Below, piece after piece: positions 2,787 through 60,827 of a DNA stretch of 64,000 nt. Origin of the DNA: Breznakia pachnodae (GTDB lineage Bacteria > Bacillota_I > Bacilli_A > Erysipelotrichales > Erysipelotrichaceae); the NCBI RefSeq assembly GCF_030814225.1, contig NZ_JAUSUR010000003.1, forward strand, positions 62,001-126,000, written 5' to 3'. A model generated the notes under the pieces. It worked only from the letters and a program-made list of their open reading frames with translations, was not told the DNA's origin and did not search any database. The stretch's first letter is position 1, and every line of letters begins with the position of its first letter. A program made the position numbers and the translations under genes.

Positions 2787-2815
2787 TGAACGATTTGTCA
2801 ATTTAAATTGTCTAA
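2787..2815 (+). promoter_or_regulatory. ECF-type promoter, site 2
   Basis: TGAACG at 2787-2792, 17 bases, GTCTAA at 2810-2815. It is followed by ATAATGAAG, nearly identical to the ACTATGAAG behind site 3. Transcription would start near 2822, about 65 bases before the sigma gene, which suggests autoregulation. Confidence 0.75.
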
Positions 2816-2887
2816 ATAATGAAGCGTGTTTGTTTGTCTTTTTTCCTTATTTATGTTAATTTTATTATGACATATAGGGAGAATACG

Positions 2888-4207
2888 ATGGCTAGAAAAA
2901 CGATAGATACCAAATATGTAAAATTATTGCAGCAAGGTGACAGTGAGGCATTTGAAGAGATCTTTCGTTTTTACAAAGATTCCATTTTCTATTTTGCACT
3001 CAGTTTCGTAAAAAATAGAGCTGATGCAGAGGAAATTGTTCAGGATACCTTTATTCAGGCATTGAGATATATCAATGACTTGGAGAAGCCTAGTTCCTTT
3101 CATTCTTGGATCCACAAAATTGCTTATAACAAGTCAATGACTTTATATAAGCAAAACAGCAAACATGTTCAAATGGATAATGATTTTGATTTAGAGAATA
3201 TGATTGAAAATAAGGAAGGACCGGAGAATATGTTGGCAAGAAGCGAAATTGTTTCAGTTATTAAAAGTGAAATTGAAAATATGCCTGAAGGTTTAGTTCA
3301 GGTTGCTCAATTACGCTACTTTGACGATTTTACGACTCGTGAGATTGCGGATATTATGGATATCCCTGAAGGAACCGTAAAAACGAGATTGAAAAAAGTA
3401 CGTAAGATAATTCAACCAAAATTATCGGCAAAAGGTTTTACACCTGCAAAATATTTCTCTTTCTTATTTACGCCGATGGTGTTTGAGGCATTCCAACAGA
3501 TTATTTCTTCAAATGGAATATCTAGCGAATCAACATCGCGACTGATTGGTAATATGGCAAGTGTAACATCTGGACTATTGGCTAGTATTGCAGCAGGTGC
3601 TGCAGGAATGGCTGGAGGTGCAGCCAGTGCAAGTGCTGGTGTCAGTACAACAATTGAAACAGCAACTAAGGTTGCAGTAGCAGCGGTATCTGGGGGAGCT
3701 GGATTATATGGAGCATATCAGATTGCTCAACCATTACCAGCACATATTGATTCTATTTCTTACTATGAATCAATGACAAATGAAAATATTGAAATCGAAG
3801 TAGCTCTTAGTAATACGGAGAGTGAAGATGATATACATATATATTTAGACAACACAGAATTAGCATTTAATCTTAATGAGAATACATTGGTATTTGAAGC
3901 AACTCAGAATGGTGACTATATCATTCAGGTCGGCGAAGAAGAACATCAGTTCACAGTTTCAAATATTGATAAGACTTCTCCGGAATTAGCAACTGTAGAA
4001 AAGCAAGGAAGTACTCTAAAAATTGCTTCATCAGATGATTTGGCAGGGATCGATTACACCAAATCATACTTGTTAACAAGTGATGGTCAAAAGGCAATGT
4101 TGAATGAAAGTGGAGTAGTGGAAGGAGACTACGAAGGTGTAGTTCAGATTTATTTATATGATAACGTTGGAAATGAATCTGTATACAGTGTTGACTTAGA
4201 TGCATAA
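2888..4207 (+). CDS. ECF sigma factor fused to a membrane segment and Ig-like domain (first copy)
   Basis: 439 residues. Region 2 spans about 18-86 (FRFYKDSIFYFALSFVKN, ADAEEIVQDTFIQ, WIHKIAYN) and region 4 about 120-175 (LRYFDDFTTREIADIMDIP, EGTVKTRLKKVRK). A linker rich in Ala, Gly and Ser (228-260) leads to a probable membrane segment (about 261-281), then roughly 155 residues predicted outside, ending in an Ig-like region with DKTSPE and GID motifs. ECF factors are usually under 200 residues with a separate anti-sigma; here the sensor appears fused and no anti-sigma gene is adjacent. The ATG at 2819 overlaps the promoter; ATG 2888 has the SD GGGAGAATACG and aligns with the start of the paralogue at 6078. 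It is followed 13 bases later by a surface protein gene in the same transcript. Confidence 0.85.
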   Translation: MARKTIDTKYVKLLQQGDSEAFEEIFRFYKDSIFYFALSFVKNRADAEEIVQDTFIQALRYINDLEKPSSFHSWIHKIAYNKSMTLYKQNSKHVQMDNDFDLENMIENKEGPENMLARSEIVSVIKSEIENMPEGLVQVAQLRYFDDFTTREIADIMDIPEGTVKTRLKKVRKIIQPKLSAKGFTPAKYFSFLFTPMVFEAFQQIISSNGISSESTSRLIGNMASVTSGLLASIAAGAAGMAGGAASASAGVSTTIETATKVAVAAVSGGAGLYGAYQIAQPLPAHIDSISYYESMTNENIEIEVALSNTESEDDIHIYLDNTELAFNLNENTLVFEATQNGDYIIQVGEEEHQFTVSNIDKTSPELATVEKQGSTLKIASSDDLAGIDYTKSYLLTSDGQKAMLNESGVVEGDYEGVVQIYLYDNVGNESVYSVDLDA

Positions 4208-4220
4208 TGGGGGCGACAGT

Positions 4221-5645
4221 ATGAAAAAAATAAAATTAAAACTATTATCGTTGTTGCTTGTACTTGGTGCATTTGTAGTTAGTGGACAAAGTATATCAGC
4301 GCATGAAGATGATGGTATTCAAGATAGTTCTGCAAACGTTAGTGAAAAGTATGGATATTATACATGTCTTCACTGGGATAAAGAAGGCGCGGGAAGAAAC
4401 TGGGTCAATTTACCTCAAAGTGGAAGTGATGAGTGGATACCAAAAGGATCAGATGTGATTCTTCATATTTATTTGAATAATGCAGAAGGTGAAAGTGCAA
4501 ATGTAAGTTTACAATTATTAGAAGGTTTGGAATTCATGGATTACACAGATAATGTGTTATGGATTCACAAGAGTGCTGGTGATTATAGATACGCAACAGA
4601 AGAGGAATATGAGCAATTTAAAAATGGTGGATTACTTACAGATATCAATAAAACATCAACAATGACATTTACTGTAAGGTTGAAGACAACATCTTCTAGT
4701 GCTACTGAAGCAAGAACACAAGTGACAGTAGAAGGTGCAGGAGTGAAGGAAATAAAAGAATATACTCCGTTTTATAGTAATTACCAACAAACATTTCATT
4801 ATATAAACATATATGATGGACAGAATCTTGCAAATACATATAAATATTTAGAAGGTGATGCTTCGGATTTACCAATTCTTGAAAAAGAAGGATATGATTT
4901 TCTAGGTTATAGTTATAGTCCTGATGGTAATGGAGATTATTATCAAGGTGGAGAAGTATATAGTAATATTACTTTATATGCTATCTATCAGAAGAAAACC
5001 TTTAATGTAAATTATTATGTTGATGGAAAGATATATGAAACAATCGTGGTTGAATATGGTGAAGATGCACAGTCACTTCAAGTTGATGGTGGTGACAATA
5101 GAATTTTCAAAGGCTGGGATGGTGATCTTAGTAATGTGACAAGTGATCGTGATGTATATGCGATATTCACAAAGAAACCAACACCACCTGTTATTCCTAA
5201 GCCGGATCCAAAACCGCAACCAGATCCAGATCCGATTGAACCAACACCGGATCCTGAGCCAGAACCAAAGCCAACACCAAAACCTGTGGAGACAGTTAAG
5301 GTGAAGGAAGAGGTAGTGCCAGTAGTTGCAGTGGAGCCAATAGCAATCATTGAAGAAGTTGAAGAACTTGTTGAAAAGAAAGAAAATTCTAAGGCAAAGA
5401 TTCAAAAAACTTCTTCGGTTGATGGAACAACGAAAACAAATAAGAATAAGACGAAGACATTGTATACTGATACAGATAAGAAAACTTCATCATCTGGTGA
5501 AAGTAGTGAAGGAAGTAGTGATACTTTAGTTGCTACAAAAACAACAGATGATAACTGGTTGAATAAAATTCTACCATTTGTGATTAGTGGAGCTGGAATT
5601 CTGGTGTTAGTTGGAATGCAATTAAAGTCGAAATTTAAAAAATAA
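4221..5645 (+). CDS. Secreted, membrane-anchored surface protein with InlB-type repeats
   Basis: 474 residues. A signal peptide (LLSLLLVLGAFVVSGQSISA) is followed by a domain of about 170 residues I do not recognise. Two beta-grasp repeats of the Listeria-Bacteroides/InlB B type follow (FHYINIYDGQNL to LYAIYQKK; FNVNYYVDGKIYE to VYAIFTKK). Then come a proline/acidic stalk of PxP repeats (about residues 325-360), a Lys/Ser/Thr-rich region and a C-terminal membrane helix (ILPFVISGAGILVLVG) with a basic tail. There is no LPXTG, so it is probably anchored by the helix. The in-frame ATG at 4200 overlaps the sigma gene; ATG 4221 has the SD GGGGGCGAC. Co-transcription with the sigma factor marks it as a likely target of that factor. 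Confidence 0.8.
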   Translation: MKKIKLKLLSLLLVLGAFVVSGQSISAHEDDGIQDSSANVSEKYGYYTCLHWDKEGAGRNWVNLPQSGSDEWIPKGSDVILHIYLNNAEGESANVSLQLLEGLEFMDYTDNVLWIHKSAGDYRYATEEEYEQFKNGGLLTDINKTSTMTFTVRLKTTSSSATEARTQVTVEGAGVKEIKEYTPFYSNYQQTFHYINIYDGQNLANTYKYLEGDASDLPILEKEGYDFLGYSYSPDGNGDYYQGGEVYSNITLYAIYQKKTFNVNYYVDGKIYETIVVEYGEDAQSLQVDGGDNRIFKGWDGDLSNVTSDRDVYAIFTKKPTPPVIPKPDPKPQPDPDPIEPTPDPEPEPKPTPKPVETVKVKEEVVPVVAVEPIAIIEEVEELVEKKENSKAKIQKTSSVDGTTKTNKNKTKTLYTDTDKKTSSSGESSEGSSDTLVATKTTDDNWLNKILPFVISGAGILVLVGMQLKSKFKK

Positions 5646-5667
5646 GTCCACAATTGTGGGCTTTTTT
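5646..5667 (+). terminator. Rho-independent terminator
   Basis: Stem GTCCAC / GTGGGC with loop AATT and a run of six T, directly after the surface protein stop codon. Confidence 0.8.
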
Positions 5668-5707
5668 GATGTTTTTAAAAAAAGTTTTAAAAAATTTGAA
5701 AAAAACG

Positions 5708-5736
5708 TGAACGAAATGCAAACCTATACAGTCTAA
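5708..5736 (+). promoter_or_regulatory. ECF-type promoter, site 3
   Basis: TGAACG at 5708-5713, 17 bases, GTCTAA at 5731-5736, followed by ACTATGAAG. Both hexamers and the spacing are identical to site 2 upstream of the first sigma gene. Confidence 0.75.
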
Positions 5737-5742
5737 ACTATG

Positions 5743-5990
5743 AAGAGGGCGCAATGAATGAAAGGAGCGATGTGATTAGTTAGTTGTGAAAGAATAAATA
5801 TTAAGAACCTATAAACCTATGACCTATTATTATATGTAAGAAAATACATTGTCCTTGGAGGGGCGGTATATCTAACAAATGGGAACCTAAGCCCATATAA
5901 TTCAAATGTTAACACCATAATATAGTTAACGCGTATGATGACCTATCGTATATTTGAATATAAAGTTCACAAAATTAGTGAACTTTTTTT
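5743..5990 (+). ncRNA. Candidate ECF-driven RNA of about 250 nt or long sigma leader
   Basis: This fills the 432-base gap between the surface protein and the second sigma gene. It begins just after ECF promoter site 3 and ends at a terminator (5963-5990). No reading frame of useful length with an SD is present. Visible helices are ATGTA/TACAT around 5834-5853, ATGGG/CCCAT around 5879-5895, and ATTCAAAT (5900-5907) with ATTTGAAT (5952-5959), with GTTAAC/GTTAAC (5908-5930) stacked inside. ACCTAT recurs several times. It matches no RNA family I know. It could be a stand-alone RNA, since a weak separate promoter (6028-6056) could serve the sigma gene, or an attenuated leader. Confidence 0.5.
5963..5990 (+). 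terminator. Rho-independent terminator upstream of the second sigma gene
   Basis: Perfect 8-bp stem AAGTTCAC / GTGAACTT with a 7-base loop and a run of T. It lies between the ECF promoter and the sigma gene that begins at 6078, so it either ends a separate RNA or attenuates the sigma gene. Confidence 0.85.
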
Positions 5991-6027
5991 ATATTAAATA
6001 CGACTAATGTATGAATGAGTATTTTAA

Positions 6028-6056
6028 TTGTTTTTTTAGGGGAAGTGTGATAAATT
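6028..6056 (+). promoter_or_regulatory. Possible housekeeping promoter for the second sigma gene
   Basis: TTGTTT (6028-6033), 17-base spacer, TAAATT (6051-6056). The match is modest, but it is downstream of the terminator at 5963-5990 and would give a short leader to the ATG at 6078. Confidence 0.35.
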
Positions 6057-6077
6057 TTGTGAACATAAGGAGTTCTC

Positions 6078-7394
6078 ATGAAAAGAAAAAAATTAGATGT
6101 AAAATATATAGAACGTATGAAGGATGGTGATATGGATGCCTTCAATACTGTGTTTGAATTTTATAAAGATTCAATTTACTATTTTTCTTTATCGTATGTG
6201 AAAAATACAGCCGATGCTGAAGAGATTGTACAAGAAACTTTTATACAGGTATTGAAGAATATTCACAAACTGAGTAAACTCCAAGCGTTTAGTTCATGGA
6301 TCCATAAGATTGCTTATCATATCGCAATGGATTCTTATAGAAGGAAAGGGAATAAACATATACAATTAGATGAGGAATATGATATCGAAGAGTTATCAAT
6401 TCAAAAGAAAGGTCCGAGGGAAATGTTAGACAATAAGGAAATCGTTAACATCGTAGAAACAGAAATTGAAAAAATGCCCCCAAAATTATTGAGGGTAGCT
6501 CAACTACGTTATTTTGACGATTATACAACAAAAGAAATTGCTGATTTGATTGAGATACCTGAGGGAACAGTAAAATCAAGATTAAATCGTATTCGTAAAA
6601 TTATACAACCAGTCCTAGAAGGACATGGAGTAAAACCTAGCCGTCATTTTTCAGTTGCCTTTGCTCCGATTATGGCGCAGGTAATGGCCACTACAATTGC
6701 CGGACATTCATTGCCTGAAGAAGCAAAAGCACCAATGAAAGAAGCAATTCTGGCACAGGCGCAGACTGAGTGGCAGGATAATGTAGGATTAGAAGAAGAA
6801 ACGAAGGTTGGCCTTCCAGCAAAATGGAAAGCAGGGATTGCGTTAGCGACTGGTGGAGCTGCGAGTGTGATAGGAATTCATAGTCTTACTAATACAGATG
6901 ACAGTAGTAGTGATGGTATTAGTCATGTAGAAGAAATACATATACCGGATAAAACCGTAAACCATCCTTTTGAAGTAGAAGTTGTAATGGATCATGATGT
7001 AGAGAATGAAGAAATTCATGTTGTTCATAATAATAAGGAAGAAGAATTTGTAGTAGACCATAATATGGTTGTATTTGAAGCGGAAGAAAATGGTGAGTAT
7101 ACGGTTATAGTTGATGATGTGGAAAGTGTAATTCGTGTCATTGATGTAATTGATATGGAACCACCAGAATTTACTGGGATTTCGCGTGTAGAAAATGGAA
7201 TTATCATTGAAGCAATAGATTACTTATCTGGAATCGATTATGAATTATCTCATATAACATATAATGATAAAACTTATTATATGGATGAAACAGGATTTGT
7301 TGAAGGTGAATTCAGTGAAGGAATTGTTCATATATACTTATATGATAGTTTAGGAAATAATGAAAAGTATACTCATAACTTACAACAAATGTAA
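6078..7394 (+). CDS. ECF sigma factor fused to a membrane segment and Ig-like domain (second copy)
   Basis: 438 residues, colinear with the copy at 2888. Region 2 (FEFYKDSIYYFSLSYVKN, WIHKIAYHIAMDSYRRK) and region 4 (LRYFDDYTTKEIADLIEIP, EGTVKSRLNRIRK) are nearly identical. The linker differs: acidic and Gln/Lys-rich rather than Ala/Gly-rich. One membrane helix is predicted at about 250-270 (WKAGIALATGGAASVIGI). The outer part has an acidic/His-rich stretch (residues about 277-330) and the same Ig-like end (DMEPPEF, GIDYELS, IYLYDSLGNN). The SD AAGGAG precedes the ATG. No anti-sigma gene is near. The two copies would recognise similar promoters but may sense different signals through their divergent outer domains. 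Confidence 0.85.
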   Translation: MKRKKLDVKYIERMKDGDMDAFNTVFEFYKDSIYYFSLSYVKNTADAEEIVQETFIQVLKNIHKLSKLQAFSSWIHKIAYHIAMDSYRRKGNKHIQLDEEYDIEELSIQKKGPREMLDNKEIVNIVETEIEKMPPKLLRVAQLRYFDDYTTKEIADLIEIPEGTVKSRLNRIRKIIQPVLEGHGVKPSRHFSVAFAPIMAQVMATTIAGHSLPEEAKAPMKEAILAQAQTEWQDNVGLEEETKVGLPAKWKAGIALATGGAASVIGIHSLTNTDDSSSDGISHVEEIHIPDKTVNHPFEVEVVMDHDVENEEIHVVHNNKEEEFVVDHNMVVFEAEENGEYTVIVDDVESVIRVIDVIDMEPPEFTGISRVENGIIIEAIDYLSGIDYELSHITYNDKTYYMDETGFVEGEFSEGIVHIYLYDSLGNNEKYTHNLQQM

Positions 7395-7395
7395 A

Positions 7396-7427
7396 ACAGC
7401 GATATCAAATTTATCGCTGTTTTTTTA
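7396..7427. terminator. Terminator between convergent genes
   Basis: Stem ACAGCGATA / TATCGCTGT with seven T on the plus strand. The stop codon of rarA (minus strand) lies at the end of its loop and the start of its 3' arm. Confidence 0.85.
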
Positions 7428-8685
7428 AGTTTGCTAAATCAGAGGTACGTTTCTTCTGTTTTAGTTTTTTTAGATTACTTGCAAGAGCTCGTTCGTACTG
7501 GCTGTTTTCATTAGGTGTATAAAAGGTCTCGTTACGTATTTCATTTGGAAGATATTGAATCTGATCAACAAGATCCAAACGACCATAATCATACTTATCT
7601 TCCTCAGCCATTCCTACAGGAGTATAACGCAAGTAAGGGGGTACAGGATACGCATGCTGTTTAATAATTGCTGTCGCATTACCAATTGCATCAATTGCTG
7701 ATTTGCTCTTTGGTGACAGACATAAATCAATGATTGTATGTGCCAGAGGGATTCTTCCTTCTGGAAAACCAACTCTTTTTGTTGCGTCAATAGCATTGAT
7801 GCATCGAGCAACAGCTGCTGGATTTGCTAATCCAACATCTTCATATGCAGTAACTAGCAGTCTACGTTCAATCGATTCTAAATCACCAATTTCAATTAAA
7901 ATACCTAAATAATAAAGCGCAGCATCTACATCACTACCACGAATTGATTTCTGAAATGCACTTAGTAAATCATAATGGTAATCACCATCACTGTCAGAAC
8001 TAATATTTGGTATAAATGCATATACTTCCACAAGTTCTTCATCAATATGATCACTTGCAACAGCACAGATTTCCAAAATGTTTAAGGCATAACGAATATC
8101 ACCATTGCTTTGTTTTGCGATAAGTTCTAATGCAGCATCAGTTGCAGTTACCTTATTGTCCAATCCATCCGGATGTTCAATTGCTCGTTTCAATGCAAAG
8201 ATAATATCGTTATTCTCTAGTGCCTTGATTTCAAACAAATGAGTTCGGCTGCGGATTGCCGGATTGATTGAGAAGAGTGGGTTTGCTGTAGTAGCTCCAA
8301 TCATAGTAATTGTCCCATTCTCAATATGTGGCAAAAGTAAATCTTGTTTATCTTTATTTAAACGATGTACCTCATCGATAATTACAACCATTCCAGGAAA
8401 GAACTTCGCTTCTTCAAAGATTGTTGTTAGTTCTTTCTTATTTCCAGTTACCGCATTGAATAATCGATAATTGATATTCAACTCATTTGCTAACACCGTA
8501 GCCAATGTTGTTTTCCCAGTGCCTGGAGGCCCATAGAAAATCATAGAAAATAATTTTCCCTGCTCTAGGCATTTTCTAATTATTTTCCCTTCTCCTATGA
8601 GATGTTGCTGTCCAATGACATCATCTAGTTTTTTTGGTCGCAAGCGAAACGCCAGCGGTTTTTTTATCATTTCGTCCATAGACAT
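7411..8685 (-). CDS. rarA: Replication-associated recombination protein A (AAA+ ATPase)
   Basis: 424 residues, the normal length of RarA/MgsA, a clamp-loader-like ATPase acting at stalled replication forks. Walker A is GPPGTGKTT, Walker B is VVIIDEVHRL, sensor 1 is IGATTANP, and the MgsA C-terminal region (YEDVGLANP, PLAHTIIDLCLSPKS, YRYTPVGM-like segment) follows. It starts 14 bases after mntP ends, on the same strand, with no good SD before either nearby ATG, so it is probably translated by coupling to mntP. Why a fork-repair ATPase shares a transcript with a manganese exporter is not clear; it may be chance. Confidence 0.93.
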   Translation of the reverse strand: MSMDEMIKKPLAFRLRPKKLDDVIGQQHLIGEGKIIRKCLEQGKLFSMIFYGPPGTGKTTLATVLANELNINYRLFNAVTGNKKELTTIFEEAKFFPGMVVIIDEVHRLNKDKQDLLLPHIENGTITMIGATTANPLFSINPAIRSRTHLFEIKALENNDIIFALKRAIEHPDGLDNKVTATDAALELIAKQSNGDIRYALNILEICAVASDHIDEELVEVYAFIPNISSDSDGDYHYDLLSAFQKSIRGSDVDAALYYLGILIEIGDLESIERRLLVTAYEDVGLANPAAVARCINAIDATKRVGFPEGRIPLAHTIIDLCLSPKSKSAIDAIGNATAIIKQHAYPVPPYLRYTPVGMAEEDKYDYGRLDLVDQIQYLPNEIRNETFYTPNENSQYERALASNLKKLKQKKRTSDLANLKKQR

Positions 8686-59939: not shown

Positions 59940-60827
59940 ATGAAAAGAATTAAATTATTATTCGGAAGCGCTTTAGCACTTGTTTTGGCACTTTCTTTAT
60001 TTGTGCCTGCAACTGTAAGTGCAGAAGAAACAGATATTACACCTACTGATACGCCAGTTGCAACTGCAGCATACACAATGGATCAAGCAGCGTTTGATGC
60101 TGATTACCCAGACGGTGTTAAACAAGGTGAAATTTTTGATATTTCAGATTATTATGATGGAGATATCTCAGAACTATATTTATACGATTATACTGGAGAA
60201 GGTTTTGCTTTCTGGGAAATCGATGAAACAACAGGAGCATTCTTAGCTAGTGATATTTGGGTACTTAGTGTAGGTGATGTTAACCTTGAGTTTGTGGATG
60301 TTGATGGAAATCTATATGCTTTAGATTTTGATGTAATTGCAAACCCAGTTGATATCGTATTAGATCCAACAACAGTAACTCTTGCACCAGGTGAATCTAA
60401 AACTATCTTAATTGATACAGTTCCTGAAGATGCATGGTGGTTCTGGGCAGAATTAGCTTTAGAAGGATCAGATGGTGTAATGGTTAACACAAAGATTTCT
60501 GATACTACTGTAATTAAAGTGGAAGAAGCTTATGATGAAAACGATGAATGGATTGGATATACTGTAACTGGTTTAAAAGCAGGAACAGCAACTATTTCTA
60601 TCGAAACAGAATTAGGACATACTTCAGTAGCAACAATTACTGTTAAAAGTCCTGAAAAACCAATCTCTCAACCACCAGCAACAACTACAACAACTAAACC
60701 AGCTGTTGCAGCTAACAATGGTGGACCAGTTACTGGTGATACAACAAACACAACAATGTATATGCTAATGATGCTTGCAGCTCTTGCATCAGTGAGTGGA
60801 TATGCATTCTTGAAAAAACAAAAATAA
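59940..60827 (+). CDS. Secreted surface protein with Ig-like domain and sortase-like tail
   Basis: 295 residues. Signal peptide (LLFGSALALVLALSLFVPATVSA, cleaved before EETD), a unique domain (about 40-135), a Big_2-like Ig domain (about 138-240: VDIVLDPTTVTLAPGESKTI, GLKAGTATISIET), a Thr/Pro linker (TTTTTKP) and a tail GGPVTGDTTNTTMYMLMMLA ... KKQK. The PVTGD before a helix and basic end is a variant sortase signal. SD AGGAGGG. The ECF promoter in front links it to the sigma factors at 2888 and 6078. Confidence 0.8.
   Translation: MKRIKLLFGSALALVLALSLFVPATVSAEETDITPTDTPVATAAYTMDQAAFDADYPDGVKQGEIFDISDYYDGDISELYLYDYTGEGFAFWEIDETTGAFLASDIWVLSVGDVNLEFVDVDGNLYALDFDVIANPVDIVLDPTTVTLAPGESKTILIDTVPEDAWWFWAELALEGSDGVMVNTKISDTTVIKVEEAYDENDEWIGYTVTGLKAGTATISIETELGHTSVATITVKSPEKPISQPPATTTTTKPAVAANNGGPVTGDTTNTTMYMLMMLAALASVSGYAFLKKQK

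Follow-up and report, generated by a model that had tools for sequence, protein, structure and literature searches.

Predicted membrane-tethered ECF sigma factors with Ig-like ectodomains, mostly encoded beside surface-protein genes, in the genome of Breznakia pachnodae

Two neighbouring genes of Breznakia pachnodae encode sigma factors that continue, within the same polypeptide, into a membrane segment and an Ig-like part. This layout raises the question of how a sigma factor might be governed by its own membrane tether, and of which promoters and genes such a protein would serve. Both genes are located in the window, a stretch of 64,000 nucleotides (contig NZ_JAUSUR010000003.1, positions 62,001 to 126,000) of a genome of 4.3 Mb in 22 contigs. 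An earlier note, made from the letters of the window, had described two proteins with complete sigma regions 2 and 4, a linker, a membrane segment and an Ig-like part, without an adjoining anti-sigma gene. Both descriptions were confirmed (Table 1). Missing from that account was a gene for an exported protein, which overlaps the first sigma gene at its end.

Table 1. Coordinates of the fused sigma factors and associated features in the window
Feature	Coordinates	Strand	Description
Sigma4-only ORF, 114 aa	1472..1816	+	Related to the fusions at 52 bits; without sigma2, membrane or Ig part
Promoter element, sigma 1	2787..2816	+	ECF-type: TGAAC (2787-2791), N17, TGTCTAAA (2809-2816)
Fused sigma 1, 439 aa	2888..4207	+	Profile matches, AlphaFold model; residues: sigma2 ~5-96, sigma4 112-181, linker/membrane ~186-280, Ig-like 1 285-360, Ig-like 2 361-439
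Exported partner protein	4200..5645	+	Signal peptide, InlB-like repeats, C-terminal membrane anchor
NNTCTAA-type promoter-like element	5708..5737	+	TGAAC (5708-5712), N17, AGTCTAAA (5730-5737); distal to sigma 2; read directly
P1 element, sigma 2	5979..6007	+	TGAAC-N17-CGACTAA
Fused sigma 2, 438 aa	6078..7394	+	Layout as fused sigma 1

Both window proteins are ECF (group IV) sigma factors, with sigma2 and sigma4 and without sigma3. They matched Sigma70_r2 (PF04542) and Sigma70_r4_2 (PF08281) above the gathering cut-off and scored 96.6 and 102.8 bits against TIGR02937 (cut-off 42.9), and their sigma domains aligned with the SigW and SigE structures in a PDB comparison. Since the predicted -10 extends to 2816, sigma 1 is unlikely to start at the more distant ATG (2819). 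The sigma4-only ORF upstream is probably a decayed paralogue of the fused sigmas.

In the full-length AlphaFold model, which was built with 20 family members, sigma2, sigma4 and the all-beta C-terminal part are confident, and the helical linker/membrane stretch (residues ~186-280, of which 191 onwards to 281 is uncertain in the family model) is of low confidence. Folded alone, the C-terminal 150 residues (pLDDT 97) give two tandem Ig-like sandwiches of ~75 aa each; the Ig fold of the outer part therefore stands, but not the single domain of 130-150 residues that had been suggested. Two-domain Ig fragments (titin I9-I11, KIT D4-D5) matched the modelled pair over its whole length with Z 7-9, values that are to be read as the same fold and not as kinship. 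The Ig folds of the ectodomain are general ones, and no ligand-binding family was recognised in the structure comparison. Between the window copies, identity is 56% in the sigma halves, 14% in the linker and 33% in the Ig part, so that the linkers and outer domains differ as first described but the sigma halves are not nearly alike.

The two proteins are members of a far larger set. The genome has 72 Sigma70_r2 matches, and 61 ORFs of more than 400 aa have the layout sigma2-sigma4-linker-membrane-ectodomain, 60 of them with an Ig-like ectodomain and one with another; one additional copy (L047) is split into two ORFs. Sixty copies of one architecture are far beyond chance. The median pairwise identity among the fusions is ~30% in the sigma part and 27% in the ectodomain, and the linker and membrane segments also vary widely between copies. 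An assembly or contamination artefact is ruled out by the spread of these 61 divergent ORFs over nine contigs and by the median sigma identity of 30%; by their sequence divergence, the fusions are diverged paralogues and not assembly duplicates. A divergent fusion at L042:6460-7908 keeps the sigma-membrane plan with a non-Ig ectodomain, and no exported gene follows it. Sigma-only proteins of 186-191 aa (L013:2962-3537, L042:11579-12154 and L014:8450-9010), which are close kin of the fusions without linker, membrane or Ig parts, would be either truncated paralogues or free sigmas.

A hydrophobic segment is found at about residues 230-270 in all 60 Ig-type fusions. Its Kyte-Doolittle mean is at least 1.6 in 52 of the 60 and reaches a maximum of 3.15, while the segments of the window copies are Ala/Gly-rich and weakly hydrophobic (1.42 and 1.43). 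The mean net charge is +1.4 before the segment and -1.5 after it, and the charge before exceeds that after in 55/60 fusions. Because of this positive-inside bias, and because the sigma part is necessarily cytoplasmic, the Ig-like part is predicted to lie outside. The extracellular location of the C-terminal part put forward in the earlier note is thus upheld as far as sequence allows, as are the lack of an adjoining anti-sigma gene and the one-protein sigma/sensor layout, which has a two-gene version in a relative. Neither a FecR match at E 0.01 nor a zinc-finger family match was present in the 20 fusions scanned, and the HxxxCxxC motif was absent from the 61 proteins scanned. No known anti-sigma domain was recognisable in the fusion linkers, where AlphaFold2 is not confident.

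At 52 of the 61 loci, a same-strand ORF of more than 200 aa begins within 60 nt of the end of the sigma gene. These partner ORFs mostly begin with a signal-like segment and end in a membrane segment and a charged tail, and in many of them the C-terminal membrane segment is preceded by an xTGDxTN-like motif, which resembles a sortase signal; six sortase matches are found in the genome. Domains in the eight partner proteins scanned include LRR with Endotoxin_C2-type repeats, MucBP with a legume-type (L-type) lectin, FctA/SpaA pilin-like domains, InlB-type repeats and dockerin. From these features, the partners appear to be mostly an exported, adhesin-like surface repertoire. The partner of window-type sigmas is a conserved smaller exported protein with 17 members, including the one in the window, and in several loci it precedes a larger surface protein. 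A related protein also adjoins the window-type orthologue of the congener G001. In a few loci (e.g., L074/L016) the surface gene is located upstream of the sigma gene, and sigma 2 of the window has no same-strand gene after it, its downstream neighbour (7411-8685) being convergent. An exported protein with a TGDTTN-membrane-KKQK tail is encoded at window 59940-60827 with no adjoining sigma gene. In more than one genus, genes resembling signal peptidase I are repeatedly neighbours of P1 sites or of fused or split sigmas (L121:6977-7597, L119:1964-2521, L064:1125-1664 and, in L012 and L009, the gene that precedes the sigma).

The upstream regions of the fusions share ECF-type promoter elements with a spacer fixed at 17 nt. 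One of these, P1 (TGAAC-N17-CGACTAA), has 43 exact matches genome-wide versus none in a reversed control. Thirty-five of the 43 exact sites are within 800 nt before a fused-sigma gene, and the remaining eight are mostly located ahead of surface-protein genes; with variants allowed, P1 is found in 43 of the 61 upstream regions. The P1 sites at L066:757 and L069:5978 are followed by a sugar-nucleotide transferase-like gene and a recombinase-like ORF, respectively, and by no surface protein. In the second element, P2, which is nearer the gene, TGAAC or CGAACC is combined with a locus-dependent -10 (NNNNTAA). A -10 of the NNTCTAA type with 17-nt spacing is found upstream of 10 loci and is common to window-type copies. 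In the congener, exact P1 occurs once in 2.5 Mb, before a window-type fused-sigma operon, and it is absent from four other family members. Among the eight short sigmas examined as possible free ECF readers of P1, none has P1 before its own gene. Because the P1-bearing operon of the congener holds a window-type fused sigma, the closest relative of which in B. pachnodae is L038 (47% identity), this type is the first candidate for the P1 reader.

The bases of the proximal -10 covary with residues of sigma2. This comparison covers one subfamily, named LTQIV after its N-terminal residues, in which 20 of 23 loci were usable; P2 was called without regard to -10 bases 1-4, L025:2412 was set aside as it needs a 16-nt spacer, and in many loci of other subfamilies P2 was not callable. 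The fourth -10 base is, by its position, the base that is flipped out by ECF sigmas. It covaries with the residue aligned to A69 of E. coli SigE (permutation p 5e-5), with alanine pairing with C in 3/4 cases, threonine with A in 5/5, tyrosine with G in 3/3 and asparagine with T in 2/2. The best columns for -10 bases 2, 3 and 4 align with SigE R76, A60 and F64/A69, respectively, all within SigE 60-76 as counted from the aligned SigE sequence, and the family-wise p values over all columns are 0.21, 0.010 and 0.023. In a leave-one-out prediction from these residues, the own promoter was placed at a mean rank of 4.3 of 20, with a p of 0.005 that is somewhat optimistic since the residue-base pairs were picked from the same data; the family-wise p values correct for this picking, the leave-one-out value only in part. 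Shared ancestry should explain little of the covariation because the tree of the LTQIV group is star-like, but independent-pairs tests had little power, with 1-2 pairs on supported branches. In the established L3-loop/-10 specificity code of ECF sigmas, residues of the L3 loop determine which base is recognised in the -10 (Campagne 2014; Todor 2020; reviewed in PMC8103513); the positions that covary here align with SigE 60-76. The code here seems to be naturally diversified among paralogues of one genome.

Since the -10 bases covary with sigma2 residues of the segment that reads the -10, each sigma probably reads its own promoter and would serve mainly its own operon. Alternatively, all copies could use one promoter class, the private promoters being illusory and the surface proteins forming a single co-regulated regulon in which the sensors alone differ. 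A nearly invariant P1 before most operons and the NNTCTAA -10 shared by window-type copies are what this alternative would predict, but we regard it as unlikely, since the proximal -10 changes together with the sigma2 residues that would read it (p 0.01-0.02 family-wise for two of the bases, and 0.005 in the leave-one-out prediction). The earlier suggestion of different inputs to a shared promoter was accordingly at most half right: P1 is common, but the proximal -10 differs between copies and, in the one subfamily, follows sigma2.

The same domain order was also found in related genomes, as the earlier note had proposed to check. An Ig profile search detected three fusions in the congener G001, and one fusion (L109) is present in G358, from another genus of the family. 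In G186, from a third genus, the gene for a 191-aa sigma overlaps the next ORF, which encodes the linker, membrane and Ig parts in 252 aa (L108:684-1259 and 1225-1983). Because the sigma and the membrane-Ig protein are adjacent genes in this genome, the fused protein looks like a joined sigma/membrane-regulator pair. Other fusions were not found among 392 sampled genomes of the phylum, in a search that would miss distant ones. Ig-profile matches at the order level (L077-L079, E 3e-4 to 8e-4) are not sigmas, a family search with alignment A3 returned nothing beyond an ordinary ECF sigma accompanied by a separate membrane protein (Hungatella MAG, L105), and two proteins with sigma4 matches from other genera (L117 and L118; 418 and 358 aa) have at a glance no Ig-type C-terminus. 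With 60 copies here versus three in the one congener compared, the fusion looks greatly expanded in this lineage.

We consider it fairly likely that each fusion is a sigma factor and its regulator in one polypeptide, which is inhibited by its tether, released by proteolysis and switches its own surface-protein operon. A linker and a single membrane helix would connect the cytoplasmic ECF sigma with the two Ig-like domains outside, and at rest the tether and linker would keep the sigma off core RNA polymerase. The Ig domains would read a signal, perhaps the state of their own surface protein or its ligand. Cleavage, probably by an outside cut and then by an RseP-type M50 protease, would free the sigma; two M50 protease matches are found in the genome. 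The freed sigma would transcribe itself and the adjacent surface-protein gene from the private P2, a loop that would act as a positive-feedback switch for one surface protein, while the common P1 before most operons would raise the whole set together. We infer the inhibition at rest, the proteolysis, the signal and the identity of the P1 reader; tether inhibition and proteolytic release are expected by analogy with IutY and with what has been proposed for ECF52. Points that weigh against this scheme are the weak hydrophobicity of the membrane segment in both window copies, a linker in which no anti-sigma domain is recognisable, the many loci of other subfamilies in which P2 was not callable, and the missing partner gene of window sigma 2.

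Few fused membrane ECF sigmas have been described, and detailed characterisation exists for IutY alone (PMC8999054). IutY of Pseudomonas putida (ECF243) is a sigma/anti-sigma fusion that is activated when Prc and RseP free its sigma by proteolysis (PMC5411451; PMC8999054). Like IutY, the fusions unite in one polypeptide an ECF sigma on the cytoplasmic side, a membrane segment and a regulatory domain on the outside. IutY, however, is a single system: it serves siderophore cell-surface signalling, works with an outer-membrane receptor and has a CSS (FecR-like) anti-sigma part. The present fusions, 60 in number, have tandem Ig domains, gave no FecR match and go with sortase-type surface proteins. 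The actinobacterial groups ECF52, ECF48 and ECF53 likewise have a long C-terminal extension with one or more membrane helices, the outer part being an extracytoplasmic binding domain in ECF52 and Ig-like here, and proteolytic activation has been proposed for ECF52 (SCO4117; PMC5826349; PMC8999054). In these groups the membrane helix is preceded by a zinc-finger anti-sigma domain, for which the fusions scanned gave no match, and SCO4117 acts pleiotropically, unlike the own-operon action proposed here. In recognisable domain content, the fusions are thus neither ECF52-like (no zinc finger) nor IutY-like (no FecR match). The SigI/RsgI system of Clostridium thermocellum, which consists of paralogous sigma/regulator pairs (PMC10575876), resembles the fusions in its multiple paralogues, extracellular sensor, distinct promoter specificities and control of a surface system. 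There, the regulator is a protein of its own, SigI has no standard sigma4 and specificity resides mainly in the -35, whereas the fusions are single polypeptides with a standard sigma4.

A tethered sigma could also work uncut, with a ligand-induced change of conformation or clustering allowing it to engage RNA polymerase at the membrane, in the manner of one-component regulators of the ToxR/CadC type. The predicted topology would suit such a protein, AlphaFold2 gives no clear cytoplasmic inhibitory domain, and the linker and membrane segments are highly variable between copies. Nevertheless, IutY, the fused membrane ECF sigma that has been tested in detail, requires Prc and RseP (PMC5411451), and the M50 protease matches also argue for cleavage, so that we hold an uncut mode of action to be improbable. 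More doubtful still is a C-terminal part that is a passive anchor holding the sigma off, with Ig domains that do something else, such as organising the surface protein at the wall: the diversity of the ectodomains (median identity 27%) and their Ig folds, which are general and belong to no recognised ligand-binding family, would allow it, but the ectodomain is kept in 60/61 copies and in two further genomes, and a third encodes it separately beside a sigma, a retention that points to a regulatory role.

Single-polypeptide membrane sigmas are already known (IutY, ECF52); new here are the scale, the linkage of one sigma to one surface protein and the putative private promoters. The genome offers a natural series of 60 fusions, each beside its likely target and with a readable promoter. 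This opens three problems to experiment: by what means a membrane tether can keep the sigma that carries it inactive, what prevents crosstalk between paralogous sigmas, and how a bacterium can choose among dozens of adhesin-like proteins. The fusions would also provide candidate orthogonal sigma/promoter pairs. We more tentatively suggest that coordinated divergence of sigma2 and the -10 may have produced ~60 switches, each insulated, self-reading and dedicated to a single surface protein, with the common promoter as an overriding input and with feedback that would let single cells switch individual adhesins independently. If true, the result would be a variegated surface without DNA rearrangement.

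Two features of the 5' regions were also observed. In most group-C loci (e.g., 5' of L025:10533-11870), the predicted mRNA start GGGUAAG(U) can pair with CUUACCC early in the ORF, and the pairing encloses the ribosome-binding site. A 5' hairpin is not claimed for this group: the pairing forms in most of six folds, but these are only mildly better than shuffled sequences, with z of -0.3 to -2.4. In the window, a palindrome with a T-run (AAGTTCAC-aaaatta-GTGAACTT, 5963-5987) overlaps the -35 of the P1 element of sigma 2, such that a terminator-like hairpin and a promoter share bases.
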